DNA of 32,470 bases from a virus. The stretch covers positions 1 through 32,470 of IMG/VR virus record IMGVR_UViG_3300005833_000004; one strand, given 5' to 3'. The translations under genes were made by a program, and so were the position numbers. Of the stretch, positions 3,772-18,994 are shown piece by piece. Position 1 is the first letter of the stretch. Every line of letters begins with the position of its first letter. A model generated the notes under the pieces. That model was not told where the DNA came from. It saw only the letters and a list, made by a program, of their open reading frames with translations, and made no database searches.

Positions 3772-4165
3772 AGAGTTAAACATCACTAATGAGAAGGCTA
3801 GAGAGCTGCTAGAAGCCATTACAGAAGAGGTTAATGATGAGCTAACTGATGAAGAAGTTGAATACCTAAGAGAAAGCATTAAGGCAGAGACAGGGCTTGC
3901 AACAAGGCTTACAGACACTGGGATGCAGAGCAACAAGCCACAGGATAAGCAGACAATCAACCTTGATGTCAACCCAAAGACTGTGATACTGGAGCGTATT
4001 TCTCTTCTGAGGGAAATCAACTCCTATGTAAACAACCATGCAATCCATCTTACAGAGGATAGCTACAATGAAATGCTTAGCAATCTATGCTCTAAGATGG
4101 ACAAGCAAAATGGTGAGTTAAAATCTATACTGGATTCAGTAAAGAACCCACAATTGGGGGAGTGA
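3746..4165 (+). CDS. Acidic helical protein (139 aa)
   Basis: 139 residues starting MASITKVCEELNITNEKARE. The first 45 residues look like a small HTH or UBA-like helical bundle rich in Glu. The middle (TDTGMQSNKPQDKQTINLDV) is likely a linker, and the C-terminal half is a long amphipathic helix with coiled-coil character (ERISLLREINSYVNNHAIHL...). GGGGGAGACAAATA upstream of ATG 3746 is a strong SD, which supports this start despite the 26-base overlap with the preceding gene. Family not recognised. It ends in GAGTGA, which overlaps the GTG start of the next frame. Confidence 0.6.
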   Translation: MASITKVCEELNITNEKARELLEAITEEVNDELTDEEVEYLRESIKAETGLATRLTDTGMQSNKPQDKQTINLDVNPKTVILERISLLREINSYVNNHAIHLTEDSYNEMLSNLCSKMDKQNGELKSILDSVKNPQLGE

Positions 4166-4446
4166 AAAAGCAAGGGTTCGGGTCAGGAAGGGGAGGAAAA
4201 ACCCCACCTAATCCGAACCTTTTTTCTAGGTTTGGGGCAGTATTTTTAATAGTTTGTTTGTTGGGCAGCTATGTCTTCGTTTCCCAGTATCAAAATACTG
4301 TCTATCTTTTGTATGACAACACTACTTACACAGTGCCAACAATAAAACCTATAAATAACAAAAGTAAAAAGAGTGAAACACACATCCGGAATAGGGGTCG
4401 GAAGAAGCCGCCTATACACAAAAAGCGTAGAAACTCCAGCCCGTAA
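4162..4446 (+). CDS. Small single-pass membrane protein (94 aa), 5' end spans a terminator
   Basis: 94 residues from GTG 4162. A Gly/Lys/Pro-rich start is followed by one hydrophobic helix (FGAVFLIVCLLGSYVFVS, residues about 25-42), then a polar segment and a very basic C-terminus (RNRGRKKPPIHKKRRNSSP). The predicted form is a bitopic protein with a positively charged tail. The GTG has no well-spaced SD (GGGGG ends one base upstream), so coupling to the previous stop would be needed. The 5' end of the frame coincides with a strong hairpin and T-run (4175-4225), so either the start is wrong or transcription is attenuated here. No family recognised. Confidence 0.45.
   Translation: MKKQGFGSGRGGKTPPNPNLFSRFGAVFLIVCLLGSYVFVSQYQNTVYLLYDNTTYTVPTIKPINNKSKKSETHIRNRGRKKPPIHKKRRNSSP
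4175..4225 (+). terminator. Intrinsic terminator/attenuator inside the operon
   Basis: GGTTCGG (4175-4181) pairs with CCGAACC (4213-4219). Inside it AGG (4185-4187) pairs with CCT (4207-4209), and GGGG (4190-4193) with CCCC (4202-4205). T6 follows at 4220-4225. This is a textbook terminator shape, 10 bases after the stop of gene 3746-4165. Confidence 0.75.
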
Positions 4447-4582
4447 GCCTTATAGTCCTGTAGGGTTTGCAGAATTCTTACTAATAATCTCAATGATTAT
4501 TAACTTTGGAACATTCATTATTGTCGCTGGGGTATCAAATCAGGTGCAGACATATGGTCAGGAACAGCAACGGGGGAACTGA
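4373..4582 (+). CDS. Small single-pass membrane protein (69 aa)
   Basis: 69 residues from GTG 4373, the only usable start in the frame, with no clear SD. A basic N-terminus (GVGRSRLYTKS) is followed by one hydrophobic segment (FAEFLLIISMIINFGTFIIVAG, residues about 32-54) and a short polar tail (QTYGQEQQRGN). It overlaps the previous gene by 74 bases and the next by 29. Its place in a row of small membrane proteins before an ATPase supports it being real, but coding evidence is modest. Family not recognised. Confidence 0.45.
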   Translation: MKHTSGIGVGRSRLYTKSVETPARKPYSPVGFAEFLLIISMIINFGTFIIVAGVSNQVQTYGQEQQRGN

Positions 4583-5234
4583 CAACCCCAACGAGAACTC
4601 TAAAGTAACCCTTGAGGTCGGGGGGATGTTTGGGAAGAGAATCTCCCAAGTGAACATCCACGGTAATAGGACAGTCAACCCGATGGATGACTTTGCTTAT
4701 AACTGGAGTAGATACATATTTTTCCCCGCCAGACCCCCAGACATATTAATAAATGCTGGCGTGACTGTGGCTGGAACTGCCTTTGTGGTGACGTTTCTAG
4801 CCACTTTTACGATGGTTGAATTAATCGTACCAGCCACACTAATTGGCATGCTGGGGCTAACCAGTTGGTTCGCTGTAAAGATAAACAGAAGCCTATTAGT
4901 GCCGTCGATAGCTAGAACAATCCTGACTATTGGTGGCATAACACTTGGGATTATTGGCACTACACAATATGGAAGTGGAACACAAGGAAAGGTCGCCAAC
5001 ACTGCGACCAACGGAAATCAGGCAGTTGTTAGTCACAAAGCAAAGGGCAACAGCAGCGGGGTTAACCCTAATGGGCGTACTGTGGCTGCTAATCGCAGTC
5101 GTGCTGCTACAGTACACGGGGCATCTAAAGGCGTTGCATCTAAAACGGTGGTTATTGCTAAGTGCCGTGGGAGTAGGTGTGTCGGCAATGATGGTACGAC
5201 GTATATCTTTAGAAAACGAGTTCATCCACAATGA
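4554..5234 (+). CDS. Multi-pass membrane protein with basic C-terminal domain
   Basis: 226 residues from ATG 4554, which has AGGTG 7 bases upstream; the frame opens earlier at TTG 4506 without an SD. The N-terminal 55 residues are polar. Two or three hydrophobic helices follow (DILINAGVTVAGTAFVVTFL..., MVELIVPATLIGMLGLTSW, and IARTILTIGGITLGIIG). The last 90 residues are Gly/Ala/Ser/Lys/Arg-rich and end with a pair of cysteines (KCRGSRCVGNDGTTYIF). It overlaps the ATPase gene by 164 bases if that gene starts at 5071, in a different frame. It is likely a membrane partner of the ATPase; family not recognised. Confidence 0.6.
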   Translation: MVRNSNGGTDNPNENSKVTLEVGGMFGKRISQVNIHGNRTVNPMDDFAYNWSRYIFFPARPPDILINAGVTVAGTAFVVTFLATFTMVELIVPATLIGMLGLTSWFAVKINRSLLVPSIARTILTIGGITLGIIGTTQYGSGTQGKVANTATNGNQAVVSHKAKGNSSGVNPNGRTVAANRSRAATVHGASKGVASKTVVIAKCRGSRCVGNDGTTYIFRKRVHPQ

Positions 5235-6426
5235 CCTACAGGATATAAGCGACCAACAGCGAGCAAACTTTTACTACAAGGCAATGGAGCCAAGCGCAGA
5301 CGAAATAACCATTGAGCTTCCACCTACTCCATTTAAGCCACCAGAGCTTTTTGATTGGGAACTATTCAACACGGAGTCTGACAAGTTTCCACACATTTTG
5401 CTAATTGGGGCTAGTGGTGATGGTAAAAGCGTTACAGCTACTTGGATGTCTACATGGCTTTCGGGGCAAAGCCTTGTAGTTAATCCACATGACAAACCAG
5501 ATGACTTCCCCGGAATTCCATCCTTCTGCGGAGGCAGAAACTATGGTGACTGGGAGGTTGATGAGTCAGTTCCTTTTGAGGGAATAAGGCAAGGGCTGCA
5601 CCCAGACGTATCTGCGGCAAGTTTCTTTAAGTCACTAATTGAGGAGATGGATGAGAGGTACAAGCGAAGAAGGGAAGGGGATGACGACTTCCCTATTGTC
5701 AACATCATAATTGACGAGTTTCCTAGCATTGTGGCGTCCTTGAAGGAGGTACGCATACCATTCCTGAAACTCATTAGGGAAGCCAGGAAGGTTAAACTAC
5801 GCCTGGTTGTCCTTGTTGATGGTGATGAGGTCAAAACCCTTGGTGTGGATGGGGAGGGAAGCACACGAGTGAACCTCAAGTACGTCTACCTTCGTAGCTA
5901 CCTTACCCCCAAGAGGGGAAGAAAGAGTGTCTGTGAAAAGGCTGGGCTAACAGAGGAGGAGACTGAATGGCTACTGTCTCAGCCACACCCAGCAATGGTT
6001 GAAGACACCCCTGCAATAGTCCCAAATCATTATCCAGGAGGTCAAATAAAAGTAGATAATTCAGTGGATAACGATTCAGAATTATCCAATCGTTATAACG
6101 CTGGAAACCCGCATGAAGCTGGGAAATTATCTAATTATCCAATTATTTCAGATAGCAAAAAAGTGCCCCAAAATGACCAAATAGTGGCACTTCAAAATTC
6201 CTGTATATTTCGGGAAATACTACTAAAGCAGGTCATCCTTTACTTCAAAAAAGAGAAGATGACCAAGACCAATATTATCAAAGTCGTCTTTGGGGCAGGG
6301 AGTAATGCGAAGGCGTACAAGCAAATTAAAGACCTGTACGACTATGTGTTGCGATCACACTATCCAGAGGATGACCAAAACGTGGAAGAAGAGTACACAA
6401 CAGAAACCACAGAGGGGGAAAAATAA
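5071..6426 (+). CDS. FtsK/HerA-like DNA-translocase ATPase with N-terminal membrane hairpin
   Basis: 451 residues from ATG 5071. The first 50 form a hydrophobic hairpin (LMGVLWLLIAVVLLQY and RWLLLSAVGVGVSAMMV) with a short basic loop. Walker A is GASGDGKS (residues 113-120). Walker B is NIIIDEF with Asp215-Glu216, followed by FLKLIREARKVKLRLVVLV, as in FtsK/HerA/TraB-type ring ATPases that pump DNA. After about residue 330 a linker leads to a small HTH-like end (TKTNIIKVVFGAGSNAKAYK), which could bind DNA as a gamma or winged-helix domain does. The start is open: TTG 4945 or ATG 4969 lengthen it, and ATG 5188 (better SD, AGGTG) would remove the membrane part. Such genes are known from plasmids and mobile elements; the role here is inferred to be DNA movement at the membrane. 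Confidence 0.8.
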   Translation: MGVLWLLIAVVLLQYTGHLKALHLKRWLLLSAVGVGVSAMMVRRISLENEFIHNDLQDISDQQRANFYYKAMEPSADEITIELPPTPFKPPELFDWELFNTESDKFPHILLIGASGDGKSVTATWMSTWLSGQSLVVNPHDKPDDFPGIPSFCGGRNYGDWEVDESVPFEGIRQGLHPDVSAASFFKSLIEEMDERYKRRREGDDDFPIVNIIIDEFPSIVASLKEVRIPFLKLIREARKVKLRLVVLVDGDEVKTLGVDGEGSTRVNLKYVYLRSYLTPKRGRKSVCEKAGLTEEETEWLLSQPHPAMVEDTPAIVPNHYPGGQIKVDNSVDNDSELSNRYNAGNPHEAGKLSNYPIISDSKKVPQNDQIVALQNSCIFREILLKQVILYFKKEKMTKTNIIKVVFGAGSNAKAYKQIKDLYDYVLRSHYPEDDQNVEEEYTTETTEGEK

Positions 6427-9586: not shown

Positions 9587-9867
9587 CGACAGCCCCTACC
9601 AGTTAGTCTGCGTGCGCTGTGTGTTGCGTCTGCATTAAATAAGGCTTTCTGTTGTTGCAAGTATTTTCTACGGACACCATAGCTAGTATTTTCCTGGTAG
9701 TCATCTTCTGTCGTAGGTGACACATCTCCTGTGTAAGCAACAGTCTGAGGAGTGCCATTTTGGTTAGCAGCTACTTGTCCCTGACCTGTAGTTTTGACTG
9801 ATTGTAGATTAGCTGCAAATAGGTTTGCAATTGCTAATAGTCTTTGTGTAGGTGTACCACTACTCAT
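9583..9867 (-). CDS. Small virion-cluster protein (94 aa)
   Basis: 94 residues from ATG 9867, SD GGAG nine bases upstream; an earlier in-frame codon at 9882 is less likely. It begins MSSGTPTQRLLAIANLFAAN, has a Gln/Thr/Gly-rich middle (TTGQGQVAANQNGTPQTVAY) and a basic end (HSARRLTGRGCR). It overlaps the ejection-protein stop by 8 bases and the fibre start by 4. The position, between the last ejection protein and the fibre, suggests a head-tail or fibre-attachment part. Family not recognised. Confidence 0.7.
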   Translation of the reverse strand: MSSGTPTQRLLAIANLFAANLQSVKTTGQGQVAANQNGTPQTVAYTGDVSPTTEDDYQENTSYGVRRKYLQQQKALFNADATHSARRLTGRGCR

Positions 9868-12800
9868 TACTTTGCACTCCAAATTTAACTCTTAATTCAT
9901 TGTACCTTTTGTCATCTTTAGCTAGCTCTGACACGTAGTCTAGAGCCATCTTATCTGCATCACCTTGTGCTAGTGGTGGAAGACTATTTGCGCCCAAAGA
10001 TTCCAACTTATTCCAGACATCCTTCTTGGGTACATTGTGCTGCTTCATCCATAGCTCAAGCCTTAGTGTAGCTATGCGTAATTTAAATTCTATTTCTCTA
10101 GTTTCCTTGACCTGCTTATACAAATTATCTAGCTCATCTCTGTCGGTAACTTTGCCATTGTAAAGTTGATTGCTTACTCGTCTAATTTCCTTCTTAAGCT
10201 CATTGGCTGTGCCCTCCATTTGGGCATAACTTGTTTGAGTTTGCCTGGCAGTTTCAATGACAGTAAGTGGGATGCCCAATGTCCTTATTGCAAGTGCAGC
10301 CGCTGTCTGCGCCTCTGGTAAATATTTCTCCATGCTTGGCTCAATACGCTGTTTCCCAAAAACAGAATTCTTTGGTGCAACCAGTGGCTTAAATGGGTTA
10401 CGTGGGTCTGTTACCTCTGGTGTACCAAACATGTCGAATGGATTAGTTCTGTTGATTAAATCAAGAGGTGGGTATGCCCCCAGTAGTGCCTTAGCTACAG
10501 GGTTGAGCCTAACCCCAAAGAAAGTAGGATTTCCCTGAATAAACTTCGGTTCCAACTTTGCTCCAGTACGCACGTCAATCCCTGTCCACCATTCGACAGC
10601 CCACCTGGTTAGCGGAGGGGCATTTTTAAAGAACTCAGCAGACCAGTCTTTAAAGTCATATCTATCTTGAATAAAGCGAGTTTGCTCCTCTGTGGAGCCA
10701 GTATAGATGCCTGTGGCTGCCAATGTGCGCTTAGATAACTTGTCAAAGAAGGAAGTTGTGTCGCTCACTGGGTCAAAACTATTGGTCATAATAGCGACAT
10801 AATTTTTGCTCTCTGGGTCTTTCCAAAGAACCAATGGGGAGGCATCCTGTTTCCACTGTGCTATGCCTGCCTCTGGTAGTTCATCTTTTTCATCCCCCGC
10901 TCCACTATTTATAAACTGCCTAATTCTCCAGTAGTTAATAAAAGCTGTTGGGTTGTTCCAAGCATGTCGCACAATACTAGGGGGAATTTTCATCATTGTT
11001 GATGCGAAGGGCATCACATAGCGCCCTGCAAAGGCTGGCACACGTCCTACGTCATCCCACATGTAGAAGTAGTTATCGACGTGCCTCATCTCATCTGCAA
11101 AGTCACCTAGAGCCTCACCTTTGGTTGCAGTTGCAAACTGCCCAAGACGATTCCCTATGCTGGTGTCTGCCCTGGATGATATTGTTGCCCACTTCATGGC
11201 ACTCTCATTGAATTGAGACAACCAAGCAAACCTTGAAAAGACAACATCCTGAGAACTTCTAGCCTGCTCCAAAAGATAGCTAATTCCCTCTAACCAGTTG
11301 TCAGTCTGCTTAGCGGGGCGTATAAAGCCGTGCACCTGTGAGTAATTGAGTAAATATTTCATCCCCCTGACCGGGTTTCCAAAGCCCTTCATGTCCCCTG
11401 CTTTGAGGAAACTTGATTGTGGGACATAATTATTGCCAACGTGTAGAAATACTTCCTCGAATAGACGTTTCTTAGTTACCAGCCTATCCCCCATCTTGTA
11501 CACAGCTTTGGTGTCATCTAATATAGATGTCCCATGCTTCATAACTTTGGTAACATCACTAAAGCCCTCCCACGCCCTAAGGAGGTTCCCACCAGAAGCT
11601 GCAAGAGAGACAGTATTAGTCCACAAATTTCTCAGCACATATCCAGTGCTGATTAGTGATGACTGAACGAATAGCCCACCAAGGTTTCTAAATAGGTTGG
11701 CAACAGTACCCATCTTTTCTGGGGACTTAGTGAGGTCTACGATTGCCGACCATGTGCCCCACACTTCTGGCTGAATTAGCAAATCCCCGCCTTGATATCC
11801 ACTGTGATACTTCCTTATCTCATCAGGGGTTAGACGGCTCCACTGCTCATACATTTTGGGGTTCTGAGCAATCATGTCTGGGGTCGCACTCCACCCATGC
11901 GCTATACCCTCCTCAGTTAGTGTCTTCATCATCAAGCTTTCGCCAGCAGCTTTGCCTAATAATTCCTTGTATTGACTATAAAGTTGTTCTGGGTTGGTGT
12001 TTAGGATTTCTTCCATTTGCTTAAAGGGAAGATTACCATATTGCTGTTTGACATAATCAACCATTTCCTCAGAAAACATGGGGACTTTGGAGAGCAGTCC
12101 CGTGTCCACCAAGTTATCGAGCATCGGTTTCGATACGTTTTCATGTAAATGCTTCACAAAAGTATTATCGACAATCATCTGCCGTAGCTCTTCCGGCTTT
12201 ACTCCCACCAATGTAGACACTAGAAATTCATCCTCTGGGATGTAGTGGAAAGTGTCCCTAGACTTGCTGAAAGCATACTGCAAGCTCAGTGGATTTGGGT
12301 TCCTAATGTACTCCTCATATAGGGTAGCTGCCTCATCTTTGACAAACCCTTTAATATGCTTGCTGCCAGCTGGGGTGAACATCCGTGGCATGTACCCTAT
12401 GCCATCGACATAACCAACATCCAGTCCCATACTCTGAGCCAACATTCGTACACTGTCAAACTTAGCTGTTATTCTGTGGGCTGATGCTAAAATTTCTTCG
12501 ATTTCTTGAGATTGAAAACCCTTTCCTGCAAGTTCCTGCACGAAATTATTGTATCTAGCATCCAAGAAGGCATGCCCTGCTGCATGAATGTTTCTGGCAA
12601 CTTTTTGTTGTGGAATCTCCCCGACTTCGATTGCCTTGAGCAAGAGGTTGTTAGCTTCGCTCCCCTGGATTCCATACTTTTTAGCAATATTGTTAAAGGT
12701 AGTATGTAAAGCTCCAATACCTTCATTTCTTTTGTAGTCAACCAGGAGGTCAATGATATTTGTACCATAGCGTCGAAGCTCAAGTAGTCTGTCCCTGACT

Positions 12801-13147
12801 TGTCCTATGTTAGATAATTTTCCTGTGTTGAGTTTTGAGTATGCTACCCCAATCCAATTAGCTAAAAATGCCTCTACCCTATAGCGATTGGCTGGGTTGA
12901 GGTCATTAATTTTCCCAAACCTTTGGTTGACCACACTGTCCATAAAGGCTCGGTTGCTGGCTTTATTGGCAGTCTCAGCAGCAATGACATCCTTATATTT
13001 AACACTTGCTGCTTCCTGTAGTTTGGCTATACGTTGTGCTCTTTTTAGTGCATCATCTCTCTCTGATGGAGCGAACTTTTTCTTGTTCTTTTCAACCAGC
13101 CCATAAGCATTATTTAGATTCTCTTCATTGCAACTAATAATGCCCAT
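9860..13147 (-). CDS. Large ejection (internal virion) protein, T7 gp16-like in position
   Basis: About 1095 residues from ATG 13147; the frame is open to ATG 13225 (1121 residues). Mostly helical. Visible stretches include GYVDGIGYMPRMFTPAGSKH, WGTWSAIVDLTKSPEKMGTV and ISTGYVLRNLWTNTVSLAAS, the last being membrane-like. A coiled coil (ANELKKEIRRVSNQLYNGK...) lies near the C-terminus. Size, helical content and place just before the fibre fit the DNA-ejection protein that forms the envelope-crossing channel in T7-like phages. The longer start would add a signal-like sequence with a lipobox-like IISC, whose start codon overlaps the start of the divergent plus-strand gene. Neither start has a good SD. 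No enzymatic motif is seen; the transglycosylase is in another protein here. Confidence 0.75.
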   Translation of the reverse strand: MGIISCNEENLNNAYGLVEKNKKKFAPSERDDALKRAQRIAKLQEAASVKYKDVIAAETANKASNRAFMDSVVNQRFGKINDLNPANRYRVEAFLANWIGVAYSKLNTGKLSNIGQVRDRLLELRRYGTNIIDLLVDYKRNEGIGALHTTFNNIAKKYGIQGSEANNLLLKAIEVGEIPQQKVARNIHAAGHAFLDARYNNFVQELAGKGFQSQEIEEILASAHRITAKFDSVRMLAQSMGLDVGYVDGIGYMPRMFTPAGSKHIKGFVKDEAATLYEEYIRNPNPLSLQYAFSKSRDTFHYIPEDEFLVSTLVGVKPEELRQMIVDNTFVKHLHENVSKPMLDNLVDTGLLSKVPMFSEEMVDYVKQQYGNLPFKQMEEILNTNPEQLYSQYKELLGKAAGESLMMKTLTEEGIAHGWSATPDMIAQNPKMYEQWSRLTPDEIRKYHSGYQGGDLLIQPEVWGTWSAIVDLTKSPEKMGTVANLFRNLGGLFVQSSLISTGYVLRNLWTNTVSLAASGGNLLRAWEGFSDVTKVMKHGTSILDDTKAVYKMGDRLVTKKRLFEEVFLHVGNNYVPQSSFLKAGDMKGFGNPVRGMKYLLNYSQVHGFIRPAKQTDNWLEGISYLLEQARSSQDVVFSRFAWLSQFNESAMKWATISSRADTSIGNRLGQFATATKGEALGDFADEMRHVDNYFYMWDDVGRVPAFAGRYVMPFASTMMKIPPSIVRHAWNNPTAFINYWRIRQFINSGAGDEKDELPEAGIAQWKQDASPLVLWKDPESKNYVAIMTNSFDPVSDTTSFFDKLSKRTLAATGIYTGSTEEQTRFIQDRYDFKDWSAEFFKNAPPLTRWAVEWWTGIDVRTGAKLEPKFIQGNPTFFGVRLNPVAKALLGAYPPLDLINRTNPFDMFGTPEVTDPRNPFKPLVAPKNSVFGKQRIEPSMEKYLPEAQTAAALAIRTLGIPLTVIETARQTQTSYAQMEGTANELKKEIRRVSNQLYNGKVTDRDELDNLYKQVKETREIEFKLRIATLRLELWMKQHNVPKKDVWNKLESLGANSLPPLAQGDADKMALDYVSELAKDDKRYNELRVKFGVQSNE

Positions 13148-13159
13148 ATAAAATATAGA

Positions 13160-13172
13160 TATAGTAACTATA
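13160..13172. promoter_or_regulatory. Palindrome TATAGTAACTATA in divergent start region
   Basis: A perfect 13-bp palindrome in AT-rich DNA between the minus-strand ejection gene (ATG 13147) and the plus-strand gene (ATG 13182 or 13224). Each arm contains TATAGT, which resembles a -10 box on both strands, so divergent promoters or an operator are plausible. Confidence 0.5.
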
Positions 13173-13181
13173 CTTACAATT

Positions 13182-13604
13182 ATGACTGACAAAAGCTTTC
13201 TAGTTAAGAGTGACGAGTACTTCATGATTACGCAGAATGAAGACTCTGCAAGCCTAAATCCCCTACTTGTCTTATTTCCTAAGACACAATTTTACGCAGA
13301 CAGTACTACCCCACTGGGCATTAGCGGGGTTTTTAATGGCACAGCCAGAGATAGCATAGCCAGATATTACAAATTCAGGGCAATGGCAGTATCTGACCAA
13401 GCAAGTACCGCTGGTGGCTTTGTAATTCAAGAATCTCAGAATGGCTCTACGAACTGGAGAACTGTGGCTAGCACTACCCTTGCAATTGGTGTCCCTTCTG
13501 CTCTAGAAGCTTCTATTACCCTAAGATATGCAAGAGTTCAATTAACCAATGGTGCAACTGGTCAAGGAACATTAGAAATTGGGTCAAGTTTGAGTGTCTT
13601 ATAG
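13182..13604 (+). CDS. Beta-rich protein, possible virion decoration/receptor-binding (140 aa)
   Basis: 140 residues from ATG 13182, or 126 from ATG 13224; neither has a strong SD. After a polar start, the pattern FVIQESQNGSTNWRTVAST, SITLRYARVQLTNGATGQGT and LEIGSSLSVL is that of a jelly-roll or immunoglobulin-like beta sandwich, as found in phage fibre and decoration proteins ('F.IQ.S.DG.NW..V.....RY.RV..TNG'). It is the only plus-strand gene between 7.6 kb and the right end, has its own terminator at 13627-13667, and faces the ejection gene head-to-head. Independent control suggests a lysogenic-conversion or surface role, or an accessory virion part; this is inference. Confidence 0.65.
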   Translation: MTDKSFLVKSDEYFMITQNEDSASLNPLLVLFPKTQFYADSTTPLGISGVFNGTARDSIARYYKFRAMAVSDQASTAGGFVIQESQNGSTNWRTVASTTLAIGVPSALEASITLRYARVQLTNGATGQGTLEIGSSLSVL

Positions 13605-13626
13605 TTATTTGTAAGTAACCAATAAA

Positions 13627-13667
13627 AAACCCCTTCTAGGATGACCAGGAGGGGGTTTATTTTTTTA
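13627..13667. terminator. Bidirectional intrinsic terminator
   Basis: AAACCCC (13627-13633) pairs with GGGGTTT (13652-13658), extended by a few wobble pairs. T-rich DNA lies to the right on the plus strand (13661-13666). On the minus strand the A-run at 13624-13629 reads as T. It serves both the plus-strand gene ending at 13604 and the minus-strand PP-loop gene ending at 13695. Confidence 0.85.
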
Positions 13668-13694
13668 TCTGCTTATGATTGTACCTTTAGCAAA

Positions 13695-14798
13695 TCACCT
13701 CTTATTTGCCACTAGAGCGGCGAATTCTTTAATGTACTCAGGACAACGGTCATTCCACCAGTCTCGCTCCAGCCTTTCTATATCCTCTACTTTGTAGGTT
13801 TTGGGATATCGACCAATGGATAGAGAATGCTCAATATATTTACACTCCTCAGTAGATATCAAGGTAATTCCGTGTTGTGCAAATTTATCATTCAACACTT
13901 TAATATGTTGCCAGTAATATTTTCTTGACATAACTGCTAAAGCCCCATGTGTTCTAGTCCCATTTTTTGGTGGACGTGGATTCATTAGTCTTAGTTTGTC
14001 ACTTCTCATTTCCTCTAGTAATAGCCTCAATGCTATAGAGAGCGCACTTGGGCAACCTTTATCATCAGTTTTATAATGCTTGGCAACACTAATTACAGGG
14101 CAACCTATGCATCCCATCCTAAGACTGCCCTTTTCATTTTCAGATATGGAGTAGACAGAAGAAATTGTATTGAAAAAGCCAGTGTAGAAAATAGCATCAG
14201 CCGTGAAAAGGTAATCCCAAACATCACAATTTCTCCAACTGATGATTGGTCTAATCACACTGTCCTTTGCTAATTTGTCTATCCCACACTCTGTGGAACC
14301 ACAAGTACTTAATTTGGCATCCCTATTATTTGATTCTCCTCTATGCTCCCCTGTGAGATGCATATATTTGTTAGTCCTATTCATAGGTTCAATCTTTAGC
14401 ACCTTTGTACACCATCGTGCATGTACAGAAGGCACTGGGAACCCATAACCTATCATCTTTGCAAAAAATCTTTCTTCTGGAACTGCTCTCGCAACAACAA
14501 CTGGAATACCTAGTGATTTGACATAGTCAAGAGTTTTGAATGTCAGATCGACCATTGTCGGATATTCAATGGTGGTGTCAGAGTGCAAAACTGTAATGTC
14601 TGTTTTGGATATAAGACCCTTGTTGATAGCCTCAATAACCAATCCCAATACTGCATGGCTATCCTTTCCTCCACTAAAACTCAAATTTATTGAGCCATAT
14701 TTATCCACTGAATCTACAATACTTTTTATAGATTCAACCTTTAACCTTTCTAGTAAATTGTCTTGAAGTAATAACATACTGTCGTATCGTGATAACAT
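13695..14798 (-). CDS. PP-loop enzyme, DndC/PAPS-reductase-like
   Basis: 367 residues. The nucleotide-binding PP-loop SGGKDS is at residues 42-47. LHSDTTIEYP (71-80), ARWCTKVLK (Cys130), GEHRGES (150-156), and PIISWRNCDVWDYL follow in the order seen in the adenylylsulfate/PAPS reductase superfamily. GCIGCP (Cys230, Cys233) with Cys130 recalls the iron-sulfur cysteines of DndC, the ATP pyrophosphatase of DNA phosphorothioation. CGSTEC at 166-171 adds another Cys pair. No dndB/D/E or dndA neighbour is present, so full phosphorothioation cannot be claimed. Alternatives are sulfur transfer to tRNA or nucleotides, sulfate metabolism, or a defence or antidefence function. It has an unusual leader hairpin (14830-14874) and shares the cassette promoter at 15846-15874. 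Confidence 0.8.
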   Translation of the reverse strand: MLSRYDSMLLLQDNLLERLKVESIKSIVDSVDKYGSINLSFSGGKDSHAVLGLVIEAINKGLISKTDITVLHSDTTIEYPTMVDLTFKTLDYVKSLGIPVVVARAVPEERFFAKMIGYGFPVPSVHARWCTKVLKIEPMNRTNKYMHLTGEHRGESNNRDAKLSTCGSTECGIDKLAKDSVIRPIISWRNCDVWDYLFTADAIFYTGFFNTISSVYSISENEKGSLRMGCIGCPVISVAKHYKTDDKGCPSALSIALRLLLEEMRSDKLRLMNPRPPKNGTRTHGALAVMSRKYYWQHIKVLNDKFAQHGITLISTEECKYIEHSLSIGRYPKTYKVEDIERLERDWWNDRCPEYIKEFAALVANKR

Positions 14799-14829
14799 AT
14801 TTTTTGTCTGCTTAGTAGTGTAAGTGGAC

Positions 14830-14874
14830 TGCCGTTATTAATGGGAGTGGGGTCGTGCCCACTCCTTTGCGGCA
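14830..14874 (-). ncRNA. Nested stem-loop leader before the PP-loop gene
   Basis: On the minus strand TGCCG (14874-14870) pairs with CGGCA (14834-14830). Inside it GGAGTGGG (14865-14858) pairs perfectly with CCCACTCC (14851-14844), leaving a 6-base loop. No T-run follows, so it is not a plain terminator. It fills much of the 80-base gap between the ribbon-helix-helix stop and the PP-loop start. Structure is visible; function (attenuation, mRNA processing or protein binding) is unknown. Confidence 0.6.
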
Positions 14875-14878
14875 TCAA

Positions 14879-15031
14879 TTAGAAACCATTCTTTTCAAGC
14901 CAAGCTGTGATAATGTCTTCTATCAACCGTGACCGTGTCTTTGCATTGGTCATCATTACAGCATTATTCAGTCTTTTTGCTGTATCTGGTTTTATGTAAG
15001 CAGAGATGAAAGTCCCTAGTGCCTTACTCAT
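14879..15031 (-). CDS. Ribbon-helix-helix (CopG-like) protein (50 aa)
   Basis: 50 residues from ATG 15031. A strong SD, AAGGGGGAA, precedes it and excludes the longer frame. The layout ALGTFISAYIKPDTAKRLNN (beta strand plus helix A) then TNAKTRSRLIEDIITAWLEK (helix B) is that of MetJ/Arc/CopG-type repressors, which bind operators as dimers through the strand. It sits 10 bases after the antirepressor-like gene in the same operon, so it may regulate the cassette promoter; antitoxin-like genes have the same size and fold, but no toxin is seen next to it. Confidence 0.8.
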   Translation of the reverse strand: MSKALGTFISAYIKPDTAKRLNNAVMMTNAKTRSRLIEDIITAWLEKNGF

Positions 15032-15041
15032 ATATTCCCCC

Positions 15042-15779
15042 TTATTTGGTGTAAGTAATTGTCGAAAAATTGAACGTGCTGATAGCTGCAATTACAGCGC
15101 TATATGGCTTAATGCCATTCTTGATGTTGACTTGTGCCAAAGTTTGGATGATGTCTATACGCCTTAGGGACTCGACACCAAAGTGGTCACGGTTTAACTC
15201 ACCCTTAGTTAAACCCAATTCTTCCTTTATTTGGCTGGGAGTTTTCCCAAACAACCCTACAGACATTACCTTGAAAGCATTGATGTAGTGATACTGGGGA
15301 TTACTAGAGCCATTTGCATCAATGTAGGCTTTGATTTCATCAGATAGAAACCAGAAAGACTCTTTGGTAGCCATCCTGTTCTTCAGGAACGCTTGCCTGT
15401 CTTCCTTTTCAAACTTGATGCCAAATGCATCTGAGAATAATTGGGTTAAAGATAGTCCAACAAGCATTCTTGAGAACTCTACAGAGTGTTTGTTACCCTT
15501 CAGAGTTAACTCAAAAATCAGTCTTTCAAAATCTATTAATGTCAGGCAATTTTCAGACTTTTTGCTCTGGGCATTTTTAACCCTAATTTTGACGAACCTG
15601 GCATCCTTTCCTAGTAAGTATTTGAAGTCTCTCTGAGCGTTATCTTGACGAACCTGGAACAGAAGTGCAGCTTGCTGAATAGAGACTGCAAAGCTTCCAT
15701 CTTCTAAAAGCAGTCCTTCAATTTCAGTATTCCCAAAAGGTACTTGGGTTACGCTTGCAGTTAAAATATTGTTAGCCAT
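15042..15779 (-). CDS. Putative phage antirepressor/regulator (Bro-N-like N-terminus)
   Basis: 245 residues. The N-terminal part (FGNTEIEGLLLEDGSFAVSI, then QQAALLFQVRQDNAQRDFKY) follows the plan of Bro-N or related phage antirepressor domains: a beta hairpin with 'v......' then a helix-turn-helix-like segment. The central part (NCLTLIDFERLIFELTLKGN) is helical, and the end resembles a second DNA-binding or oligomerising part (GLFGKTPSQIKEELGLTKGE). Similar proteins are common in cyanobacterial genomes and their phages, in my recollection. It has its own consensus promoter 60 bases upstream, so it is expressed independently of the late genes. The antirepressor role is inference. Confidence 0.6.
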   Translation of the reverse strand: MANNILTASVTQVPFGNTEIEGLLLEDGSFAVSIQQAALLFQVRQDNAQRDFKYLLGKDARFVKIRVKNAQSKKSENCLTLIDFERLIFELTLKGNKHSVEFSRMLVGLSLTQLFSDAFGIKFEKEDRQAFLKNRMATKESFWFLSDEIKAYIDANGSSNPQYHYINAFKVMSVGLFGKTPSQIKEELGLTKGELNRDHFGVESLRRIDIIQTLAQVNIKNGIKPYSAVIAAISTFNFSTITYTK

Positions 15780-15845
15780 TGTCTAATATCCTAGATTGTG
15801 GTCAGTGGGAGGTTAGAGTTGGTAGCTCTTTCCTCTCATGTCTTT

Positions 15846-15874
15846 AATATAGCTCTACTATCAGAACTTGTCAA
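15846..15874 (-). promoter_or_regulatory. Consensus sigma-70 promoter of the cassette
   Basis: On the minus strand TTGACA (15874-15869), a 17-base spacer and TATATT (15851-15846). This matches the bacterial -35/-10 consensus almost fully. It faces the regulator gene at 15779 with a leader of about 60 bases, and lies just after the stop of the ejection gene at 15902. Confidence 0.85.
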
Positions 15875-15901
15875 GCATTTATAAGGGATTAATTTTGTAG
15901 C

Positions 15902-18900
15902 TCACAGGCAAGGGTTAGTGTCAGGTGACTTAGTATGCTGGATGGTTAAATCATCAGCCTTACCAGCCTTAGCGACCCTTCTGGAGACATCCACTTCACT
16001 CTCAGCCTTTGCTATGGCTGTTAACTTATCTTCTGCTTGCACAAGGTCATTAGCCAACCTGGTGGCTTTCTCTTGAGCTATATCAAAGTTGTCCTGGGTT
16101 TGACTGGCATATCTATAGAGCAACCCACCCTGGCTATCTACACTGGTAGCCTTAGAGTAAACATTATTTGGATACCTCTTTGCAATTTTAGTGTCTGCCA
16201 TGTAGCGAGATATTGCCTGCTCCAGAAGGTCACCAACTCCATGCTGAGTGACAGCATTGGTAGTGATTGGATTTCCCCCACCAGGTTTGCCCAAATAAGC
16301 CACCTGGGTGTCCCCGTTTACAGAATGAACTATTGCGTCATAGCCATTTTTACGCAAAGTGTCATTGATTCTTCTCTGTACATCAAGCCCTACATTTTCG
16401 GGATAGCCAGAATATGAGCCTGCAATAGCCTCATCAACTTTTGGATAAAGCTCCTGTAGGGTCACATCATTTCTAGAAATCCAGCGAGATATTGATTTTT
16501 TGATGGACTGGTCTAATGCTGAAGAATTGACCGCATCAATAATAGATGCCTTAAGCAGCTCATCTACAGCTTTTGTACTATTTATTGGATTTGTGAAGTC
16601 TATCTTAGCCTCATGCACATTACCAACTTCACTAAACTTTCTACCAGTAACATCTGGTAGGTTACGTCCTGGGTGTGCTTTAGCATAGTCTAAGGCATCA
16701 TCTGCCTTATTTGTGAAATATATGGCTGTCCCAAATTCTCCTCTAGAGCCTCCCACCAATGGGTCAATTTTCGCTAGGTCTAAGTCAGTAACCTTTGACC
16801 CATGATAGAAGGTTTGCTGACTCAAGTTAGAAGCCAACTCGGTCTTCGTATTTACACTAATAATTTCTTCACTAGGGTTAAAGGGTATTACCTCGTCAGC
16901 ATCAAGATTTTGCCTACCAACATTTAAACTCTGATTATCCATGTCATCAAAGAAATTGGCTAGAGCCTGCTTTTGCATCTGCAAGTCATCCATGATTTCA
17001 CTTGCTGTCTCTGATGCTTCAAAATATGCATGCTCAATATCTACTAACTCCTGTGTGGCTTGGATACCGTCTGGGGATTTAGTAATTAGGTTCCTGGGAT
17101 AATCCCCCTGCACCTCAGCTAGCTTGAACGGATTGCTCACCTTTGGGGGCATTGTCATTGCTGTTGCGATCGCATCACCATCTTGTGCCAACTTCTGGAC
17201 TTCCTCTGGGGTGGCTACCATAAGTCGCTTCCTAATTTCCTGAAATTTTAATGCTGCCTGTTCAGTAGTTAGTTCTCTAGCCGCCTCTATCAAGTCATTT
17301 CCTGGTGGAAGTAGCTTCTGATGTGGCTCAAGAGTAGCTTCCATATGAATTATTGGTGCGCCCAGACGGTTATATGTAGGATTCTCCTGAGCCAATAAAT
17401 CAAGTCTGCGTTTAGTGAGTGCCCCTGGCTGTGGAAGTATGTCCCCATTGCGAACTGCTAGGTTGGTCAAATCCTCATTGGAGCGAATAACCTGCACCAA
17501 TTCACCAGGTACAACTGGCTCTGCATTAAGGATGGTTTTGACAATCTGATCTGGTGTCTTAGGAATGACTGCTAACTTAGGAACTTCTTCTCTTAGCGTT
17601 GTTGGTCTAAAATTCTCCAATCCTATAACTTTCTCAGATGTCTCCTTTACTGGTTTGGTAGCTTGACCAAAGGTTTTCCAGTAGCTGGGACGGAATAGCT
17701 TAACTATATCCCTTGGCTCTGGGGTGGCAAGGTCTGCAATAAGCCCTGCTGTAAATTCTGGATATCTAAAATATGAGTTGCCCCATTGGTCTGTGAAGCC
17801 TTTCTTAATAGGTTCAGGTATTTTTTTACCAAAAGCTAACTTAGCTGCCTGTATACCAAAATAAGCAAATGGGCTTTTCCAAAGTATTGACCTGTCTGCT
17901 AATTGGTCGAATGTGTCCGGGTTAGATTTAGAGCCAAGAAAAGATAGGGGTCTGTCTGGGGAGGACTCAGTGGTGAAATCGTAGGATTTTCCCAAAAGCC
18001 CTTGAACAAAACTAGGTCTATTTGCTTCTTTCTGGTAATTCCCTGTAGCTATGTTATAAAGACTAGTTGCCCCAGCTTGTACAGCATTCTGCCCTATCCC
18101 AAGTGTATACAACACAGACCCTAAGTAACCCTCCCCAAAATCACCATACTTACCTGCTGCTGAACCTAGGGGAAGCCATAGTGGTAACTTCCAGGCATTC
18201 CCCCAGGGGTCTTTCTTGAACTCTCCCCAAAGCTGCTTATAGCCAGCCCACGGGTCGAAGTTATTTTTCTTGGCTTCTGCTTCCAGACCAGTCAGACCTT
18301 CTTCCCAAAAATTCTTAACTTGATTAGTCGAATAAACACTACCAAAAGGATTCCTAAGTGGGTCGGGGTTAAAACGTCCATCAACCCAGGGCATGCCGGG
18401 AATGCCTGGACGCTGAAGGCTTTGGCGGAGATTGTCCTCCGCTTGGGGGACTTGTGGGGCTGCACGCTTAAACCACTGCTCTGTCTCCCTATCGAGCTGC
18501 TGCTTATAGCTATCAGGAGTGTTGTATACAGTAGGGGTCGTCTCCCCAGATAAATATGAGTCTTCATAAGGAATTTGCTGAGCTTGCTTTAATAGCTCCA
18601 ATTCCTGTTGCTGCTTGGCTTGAATCTCTACTGGAACCTGTGTACCAAATCCCTGTGGTATAGACGGGTCGACAGCAAAGCCACCGCCCTCTTGTGATGG
18701 TGCAATTCCCAAACTCCCAGTCCCCTCTGGGATGCCTGGGACATTAGGATTTATCAGTGGTGGGTTGATTGCATCTAGAGGAAGGTTTTCATGCTGAATT
18801 TCCCCATCTTGTTGTATCTGCGGTGTTTGTATGTCCAGTGGAGATATAGGTGCTACATCCTGTGGTGCGTCTGGTGGTGGCTCTGGTATGTCTTGTTGTT

Positions 18901-18994
18901 GTACTGGTGGTGGTGTGAGTATAGGTGCTGGTGGTACTTGTCCGCCTTGCAACCTAGGGTCATTCTTGTTTTCAGTTTCATTAATTAATCCCAT
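15902..18994 (-). CDS. Large ejection protein with ADP-ribosyltransferase-like domain
   Basis: 1030 residues. The first 130 are Pro/Gln-rich and disordered (PPAPILTPPPVQQQ...). The middle is helical with aromatic-rich stretches (WAGYKQLWGEFKKDPWGNAW). From about residue 720 to 905 an ADP-ribosyltransferase fold is suggested: TFYHGSKV (His731), then GEFGTAIYFTNKADDALDYA (Tyr759), then NGYDAIVHSVNGDTQVAYLG. These match the H-Y-[E] layout of ARTs carried in phage virion 'polyvalent' proteins. The expected final Glu appears as Thr/Gln (DTQVAY), so catalysis is uncertain. It lies between two ejection proteins, so it may be injected and modify host targets. ATG overlaps the previous stop (TAATG). 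The C-terminal end abuts the inserted cassette. Confidence 0.75.
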   Translation of the reverse strand: MGLINETENKNDPRLQGGQVPPAPILTPPPVQQQDIPEPPPDAPQDVAPISPLDIQTPQIQQDGEIQHENLPLDAINPPLINPNVPGIPEGTGSLGIAPSQEGGGFAVDPSIPQGFGTQVPVEIQAKQQQELELLKQAQQIPYEDSYLSGETTPTVYNTPDSYKQQLDRETEQWFKRAAPQVPQAEDNLRQSLQRPGIPGMPWVDGRFNPDPLRNPFGSVYSTNQVKNFWEEGLTGLEAEAKKNNFDPWAGYKQLWGEFKKDPWGNAWKLPLWLPLGSAAGKYGDFGEGYLGSVLYTLGIGQNAVQAGATSLYNIATGNYQKEANRPSFVQGLLGKSYDFTTESSPDRPLSFLGSKSNPDTFDQLADRSILWKSPFAYFGIQAAKLAFGKKIPEPIKKGFTDQWGNSYFRYPEFTAGLIADLATPEPRDIVKLFRPSYWKTFGQATKPVKETSEKVIGLENFRPTTLREEVPKLAVIPKTPDQIVKTILNAEPVVPGELVQVIRSNEDLTNLAVRNGDILPQPGALTKRRLDLLAQENPTYNRLGAPIIHMEATLEPHQKLLPPGNDLIEAARELTTEQAALKFQEIRKRLMVATPEEVQKLAQDGDAIATAMTMPPKVSNPFKLAEVQGDYPRNLITKSPDGIQATQELVDIEHAYFEASETASEIMDDLQMQKQALANFFDDMDNQSLNVGRQNLDADEVIPFNPSEEIISVNTKTELASNLSQQTFYHGSKVTDLDLAKIDPLVGGSRGEFGTAIYFTNKADDALDYAKAHPGRNLPDVTGRKFSEVGNVHEAKIDFTNPINSTKAVDELLKASIIDAVNSSALDQSIKKSISRWISRNDVTLQELYPKVDEAIAGSYSGYPENVGLDVQRRINDTLRKNGYDAIVHSVNGDTQVAYLGKPGGGNPITTNAVTQHGVGDLLEQAISRYMADTKIAKRYPNNVYSKATSVDSQGGLLYRYASQTQDNFDIAQEKATRLANDLVQAEDKLTAIAKAESEVDVSRRVAKAGKADDLTIQHTKSPDTNPCL
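17166..17173. other. Single HIP1 octamer GCGATCGC
   Basis: The only copy of the highly iterated cyanobacterial palindrome that I found in the window, inside the ART-bearing gene. Most cyanobacterial chromosomes carry it about every one to a few kb, so it is rare here. Confidence 0.8.

Follow-up and report, generated by a model that had tools for sequence, protein, structure and literature searches.

A probable moron-like cassette between two late virion genes in a genome fragment of a cyanopodovirus

The window, by which we mean the whole stretch of 32,470 bases analysed here, is an IMG/VR virus record and likely a fragment. Its late genes include the terminase end, portal, capsid, tail tube, an M23 peptidase internal protein, an internal protein with an ADP-ribosyltransferase (ART) domain, a 'host specificity' protein and a tail fibre, and they match those of the freshwater cyanopodoviruses now named Saffermanviridae. 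These genes mark the window as part of a Saffermanviridae-like cyanopodovirus genome. Its closest match on record is Mastigocladus phage CHP58, which came from a hot spring in Chile (right-flank gene 53% identical, tail-tube protein 63%), and scans of viral contigs for nearer kin of the right-flank gene, queried either with the window sequence by itself or with CHP58, found none. The features found at the locus are the following.

15902..18994, minus strand: left flank, virion protein of the internal (ejection) type, with an ART-like domain
13148..15901: block read as inserted, 2,754 bp, missing from every relative examined
15846..15874, minus strand: sigma-70-like promoter, TTGACA-17-TATATT, 11/12 consensus
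15042..15779, minus strand: BRO-N/KilA-N-fold regulator (antirepressor-like), 245 aa
14879..15031, minus strand: ribbon-helix-helix (RHH) protein, 50 aa, ribosome-binding site AAGGGGGA
14799..14878, minus strand: structured leader ahead of the PP-loop gene, with an 8-bp hairpin inside a TGCCG/CGGCA stem
13695..14798, minus strand: PP-loop, PAPS-reductase-like enzyme, 367 aa
13625..13658, both strands: bidirectional intrinsic-terminator-like hairpin between the PP-loop and plus-strand genes
13182..13604, plus strand: protein of 140 aa with homology to the C-terminal domains of tail/late proteins from phages
9860..13147, minus strand: right flank, virion protein of internal/tail type (PHROG 'host specificity'), with 13147 as its likely true start

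The ends of the flank genes were set by alignment with five relatives. The stop of the ART gene lies at 15902-15904(-) and the ATG of the next virion gene at 13145-13147(-); because the homology of this downstream gene begins at ATG 13147, a start at 13225 is unlikely to be the real one. An empty site was found in 11 distinct relatives, namely CHP58, A-4L, Pf-WMP3, Pf-WMP4, TR020 and six IMG/VR contigs (L010, L012, L013, L014, L017 and L067). The two flanking genes are 5 bp apart in CHP58 and A-4L, and abut or overlap within tens of bases in the nine others; across relatives the gap ranges from -23 to about +140 bp, the widest being that of Pf-WMP3 (annotated ends). None of the cassette proteins was found by tblastn in these 11 phages, and in the window both flanking genes are intact up to the block ends. 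The initial annotation had described a block breaking an expected run of ejection genes, flanked by virion genes of one operon, and had asked whether related phages all lack an empty site. The opposite was found: 2,754 bp in the window, against flank genes that abut, with no block between them, in 11/11 relatives.

Since related phages show the empty site, the block is, on the simplest reading, an insertion. No target-site duplication, terminal inverted repeat, integrase, transposase or homing nuclease was found in it, and for lack of such marks a transposon or intron origin was rejected. Foreign origin was also considered from composition. The GC content of the block, 39.2%, falls at the 1st percentile of structural windows, yet in dinucleotide signature it agrees with the phage itself and ranks with the most phage-like windows, so that composition gives no sign of a recent foreign origin. 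The block is known from one assembled contig.

The flank proteins have features of their own. At residues about 728-835 the left-flank protein contains a conserved ART-like stretch (FYHGS...GTAIYFT...ALDYA), shared by its CHP58 counterpart (FFHGS...GTAIYFT). It matches Pfam ART-PolyVal weakly (20.4 vs 31.2 bits) and, at 1e-4, a PHROG named RNA polymerase ADP-ribosylase. It is possible that this protein is an injected host-modifying enzyme; its ejection role we infer from its family. In nearly all relatives the ART protein has a Cys no more than about three residues from its C-terminus (PCL, FCL, PCQF, PCGF, PCE) and the next virion protein a conserved Cys near residue 4-7, and the window proteins have the same near-C-terminal and near-N-terminal residues, a sign that both genes are complete at the block ends (pattern taken from window positions 15905-15913(-) and 13130-13147(-), and from L004, L005, L010, L012-L015 and L067). 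Such paired Cys residues could possibly tie the ejected proteins together, covalently or through a metal. As a separate observation, contig L019 encodes at 3798-5267 (+) a protein made of many short repeats, SSLxSSLYSSL, with antisense frames that are also long and open.

We then turn to the expression signals of the block. The consensus promoter proposed initially was recovered as a sequence signal, and its 11/12 match is the only one of that quality in the 32 kb window. Chance predicts about 0.9 such sites in the whole window when both strands are counted, so the match by itself carries no significance; one that falls in the right 123-bp gap and in the right orientation has p ~0.001. Between its -35 and -10 elements, at 15853-15861, lies the 9-mer ATAGTAGAG, which we take to be Arc-operator-like; this candidate Arc operator was dropped, as the 9-mer occurs in 29/100 shuffled windows. 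The leader forms a stable double stem between the RHH and PP-loop genes (-23.9 kcal/mol, z -3.6, with 0/200 shuffles as low). It matched no Rfam family, and its identification with a known RNA was set aside. The bidirectional terminator also stood, with T-tracts on both sides of the hairpin: on the plus strand a hairpin of -17.5 kcal/mol is followed by the T-tract ATTTTTTTAT, and the minus-strand terminator is weaker. The Saffermanviridae-type cyanopodoviruses have no RNA polymerase of their own (PMC6129581), and host-type promoters are therefore expected in them.

In a profile search the regulator matched phrog_2657, a transcriptional regulator, at 3e-12, while a Pfam search gave no Ant or Bro-N match at E<=0.01. 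An AlphaFold model built from five family members reached a pLDDT of 77, and Foldseek matched it to viral BRO-N, KilA-N and Ant N-terminal domains, with E values of 1e-4 to 6e-4 for BRO-N/Ant. The PDB matches were DdrC, the N-terminal domain of granulovirus Orf22, and the Ski/Dachshund and Mbp1 DNA-binding domains. The model thus supports a BRO-N/KilA-N-type fold for the N-terminal domain, and the initial description as antirepressor-like is upheld at the level of the predicted fold. Relatives of the regulator occur in phage contigs, in a Calothrix prophage-like region, in other cyanobacteria and on a 4.5 kb Crinalium plasmid.

The neighbouring gene was supported as a ribbon-helix-helix gene by a score just above the cut-off of Pfam RHH_1, the only model matched (20.7 vs 20.5 bits). 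At least eight loci, all of them in the more distant half of the family to which the regulator belongs, have an RHH gene directly adjoining the regulator gene, and these adjacent genes occur on both chromosomes and plasmids of cyanobacteria. Genes matching RHH_5 are rare (31 matches in eight genomes of about 59 Mb); the single match in G130 (6.9 Mb) and the two in G283 (3.5 Mb) all adjoin regulator-family genes. In a phylum-wide scan, an RHH neighbour was found at 7/30 family loci vs 0/20 control loci, a count that is partly circular because the RHH profile took training sequences from five of the loci, and most of the seven positives contributed to it. Within the close regulator subfamily, RHH pairing was confined to the window and, with the genes in convergent layout, the Crinalium plasmid, and the RHH proteins paired elsewhere are not close relatives of that of the window. 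That plasmid, pCRI9333.08 (4.5 kb, positions 120-2815), carries two regulator-family members, one per subfamily; the gene between them has an RHH-looking N-terminus by eye and no Pfam match. A search for all four cassette genes together elsewhere, suggested initially, did not find them: only the regulator and RHH genes recur. Because the regulator family adjoins RHH genes on cyanobacterial plasmids and chromosomes, the pair is, by gene neighbourhood, a recurring module. The cyanobacterial pairs share with the window a member of the same regulator superfamily, BRO-like, beside an RHH gene, here RHH_5, but there the RHH gene usually comes first, no PP-loop enzyme is present and the subfamily is a distant one.

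The third minus-strand gene, for which no clear ribosome-binding site was seen, encodes an enzyme that keeps the SGGKDS motif and Cys130/166/171/230/233, conserved in an alignment across phage relatives. It matches PF01507 at 8e-15 and phrog_12882 at 1.8e-27. The initial annotation called it DndC-like, which holds in part: the PP-loop assignment stands, but the enzyme is not DndC. Against DndC TIGR03183 (NCBIfam) the enzyme scores 82.9 bits, far below the cut-off of 290.4, and against CysH-type equivalog models 28.9 bits, with a cut-off of 254.2. A maximum-likelihood tree joins it to an IMG/VR phage protein (93/96 support) and leaves it out of the branch of cyanobacterial DndC, its exact place being unsure because branches are long. 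A protein of DndC length is encoded in many cyanobacterial genomes; the two tested, both from that branch, are true DndC, with scores of 713-718 bits. The PP-loop core of DndC aligns with the enzyme, but DndC has about 530 aa vs 367, falls in a separate branch, and its partners dndD and dndE were not recognised among the ORFs scanned in the window, itself a fragment. By score and tree, the enzyme groups with phage PAPS-reductase-like proteins and not with DndC. With this family (phrog_12882/phrog_424) it shares the PP-loop motif, the cysteine pattern and its tree grouping; it differs by an identity of 25-36%, by its site in a late operon and by the lack of a neighbouring methyltransferase, none being recognised in the window. 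Four phages (Mae-JY29, RR1-A, Dobby and phiC725A) have its relatives next to or near DNA methyltransferases, and the closest relative adjoins genes read by eye as AlkB-like and MazG-like. As the phage relatives often adjoin DNA methyltransferases, a role in nucleic-acid modification is suggested. In the hot-spring Thermus phage Tsatsa, a PAPS-reductase-like gene is an insert relative to IN93 (PMC11437467); at 1710-2669 in that genome, it offers a parallel to the cargo gene of the window.

The plus-strand gene, oriented against the late genes, had been described as a divergent gene for a beta-rich protein. Its presence stood, and it is not an orphan. Its product is 39% identical to the C-terminal domain of Sphingomonas phage Scott gp19, whose gene lies in the late region next to those for terminase, tail fibre and endolysin, and 33% identical to the C-terminal domain of a protein that follows BppU and collagen-like genes in a Spirosoma phage-like plasmid. 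Because of this homology to both C-terminal domains, it is probably a tail- or surface-type domain. A single-sequence structure model of it was discarded (pLDDT 40).

Because the block is missing at the same place in relatives, holds its own gene set, and has promoter and terminator signals of its own, we consider it likely to be a moron, that is an accessory cassette gained in this lineage by insertion exactly between two virion genes of the late operon, with its own host-type promoter and terminator. The regulator, RHH and PP-loop genes would then form one operon, transcribed by the host RNA polymerase from the promoter at 15874(-). The RHH protein would repress this promoter, and the BRO-N-fold regulator, acting on DNA or on a repressor in antirepressor fashion, would relieve or redirect the repression. 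The PP-loop enzyme would be the payload, with DNA or some other nucleic acid as its most likely target, and the plus-strand gene, encoding its tail- or surface-type domain, would end at the shared terminator. Self-regulation, and expression at a time different from that of the late genes, are plausible from this layout.

Working in this way, the cassette would resemble the 'ant moron' (immI) of P22, which is its closest functional parallel, a likeness drawn from layout and not from homology of the parts. P22-like phages hold a variable ant moron/immI (mnt, arc, ant, sieA) in the late operon, between genes 16 and 9; it has antirepressor and RHH-class repressor genes, is independently expressed and is missing in some relatives (PMC2629481, PMC8022706). 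The initial suggestion that this kind of accessory system is undescribed was therefore not sustained, as P22-like phages hold one at the same functional place. Common to both is the late-operon site beside an ejection-protein gene (a role assigned to the window flank from its family). The window regulator resembles Bro-N and Ant N-terminal domains in predicted fold, with no Pfam match to these families at E<=0.01, and beside the Arc/Mnt-family repressors of P22 stands a putative repressor that matches RHH_1 alone, just above the cut-off. The window phage differs in belonging to another virus family and being presumed lytic, in having a PP-loop enzyme and a tail-like domain where P22 has sieA, and in having one RHH gene and no recognised antisense RNA.

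Some points weigh against the moron reading: composition gives no sign of a recent foreign origin, in the close regulator subfamily the RHH pairing is limited to the window and the Crinalium plasmid, the promoter match is at chance level if its position is disregarded, and the block comes from a single contig. A more specific form of the same explanation makes the enzyme a counter-defence cargo, which would thiolate phage DNA or alter it in another way, or would disturb the phosphorothioation of host DNA or a related restriction system, the regulator/RHH pair only timing its expression. The methyltransferase genes near its relatives in four phages, the AlkB-like and MazG-like neighbours, and the DndC-length proteins of many cyanobacterial genomes (true DndC in the two tested) speak for it; yet the window, where part of the early region is missing, has no recognised methyltransferase, dndD or dndE, and PP-loop enzymes take many substrates. 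We regard this form as possible but tentative. That the enzyme is instead a PAPS/APS reductase raising host sulfate assimilation would agree with its PF01507 match and with the cysH-type auxiliary metabolic genes that, going by article titles, are often annotated in phages; with CysH-type models at 28.9 vs 254 bits, DndC-type models matching better, and a multi-cysteine pattern common to phage proteins adjoining methyltransferases, it seems quite unlikely.

The regulator and RHH genes might also be a toxin-antitoxin-like or plasmid-maintenance module from a cyanobacterial plasmid, now merely persisting. RHH genes are paired with family members on Leptolyngbya and Pseudanabaena plasmids, with a related layout on the Crinalium plasmid, and Makarova et al. 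(2009) count phage repressor/antirepressor (Xre-Bro) pairs among toxin-antitoxin-like pairs (PMC2701414). The BRO-N-fold protein has no recognised toxin domain, however, the gene order differs and the intact enzyme motif speaks for a selected cargo, so that this origin is unlikely. It is improbable, in our estimate, that an undescribed mobile BRO-N-fold regulator/RHH module moves among cyanobacterial plasmids, prophages and a lytic-type cyanophage, and that its role here is to drive a DndC-like PP-loop enzyme, standing alone, against which or through which phosphorothioation of host DNA is countered or exploited. A chimeric assembly or annotation artefact, to which a single metagenomic contig and the low GC of the block could point, is very improbable: both junctions are clean within one phage, the dinucleotide signature equals that of the rest, and the ORFs are intact and have homologues.

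If the block is a moron, the 'ant moron' solution is suggested also in a cyanopodovirus family not known for one, and using different proteins. This would favour the view that the spot next to ejection-protein genes in the operons of short-tailed phages is a permissive site, tolerant of self-contained cassettes of regulators and cargo, and the cassette offers a concrete enzyme as a candidate for counter-defence in cyanobacteria, many of which have DndC-type DNA modification genes.
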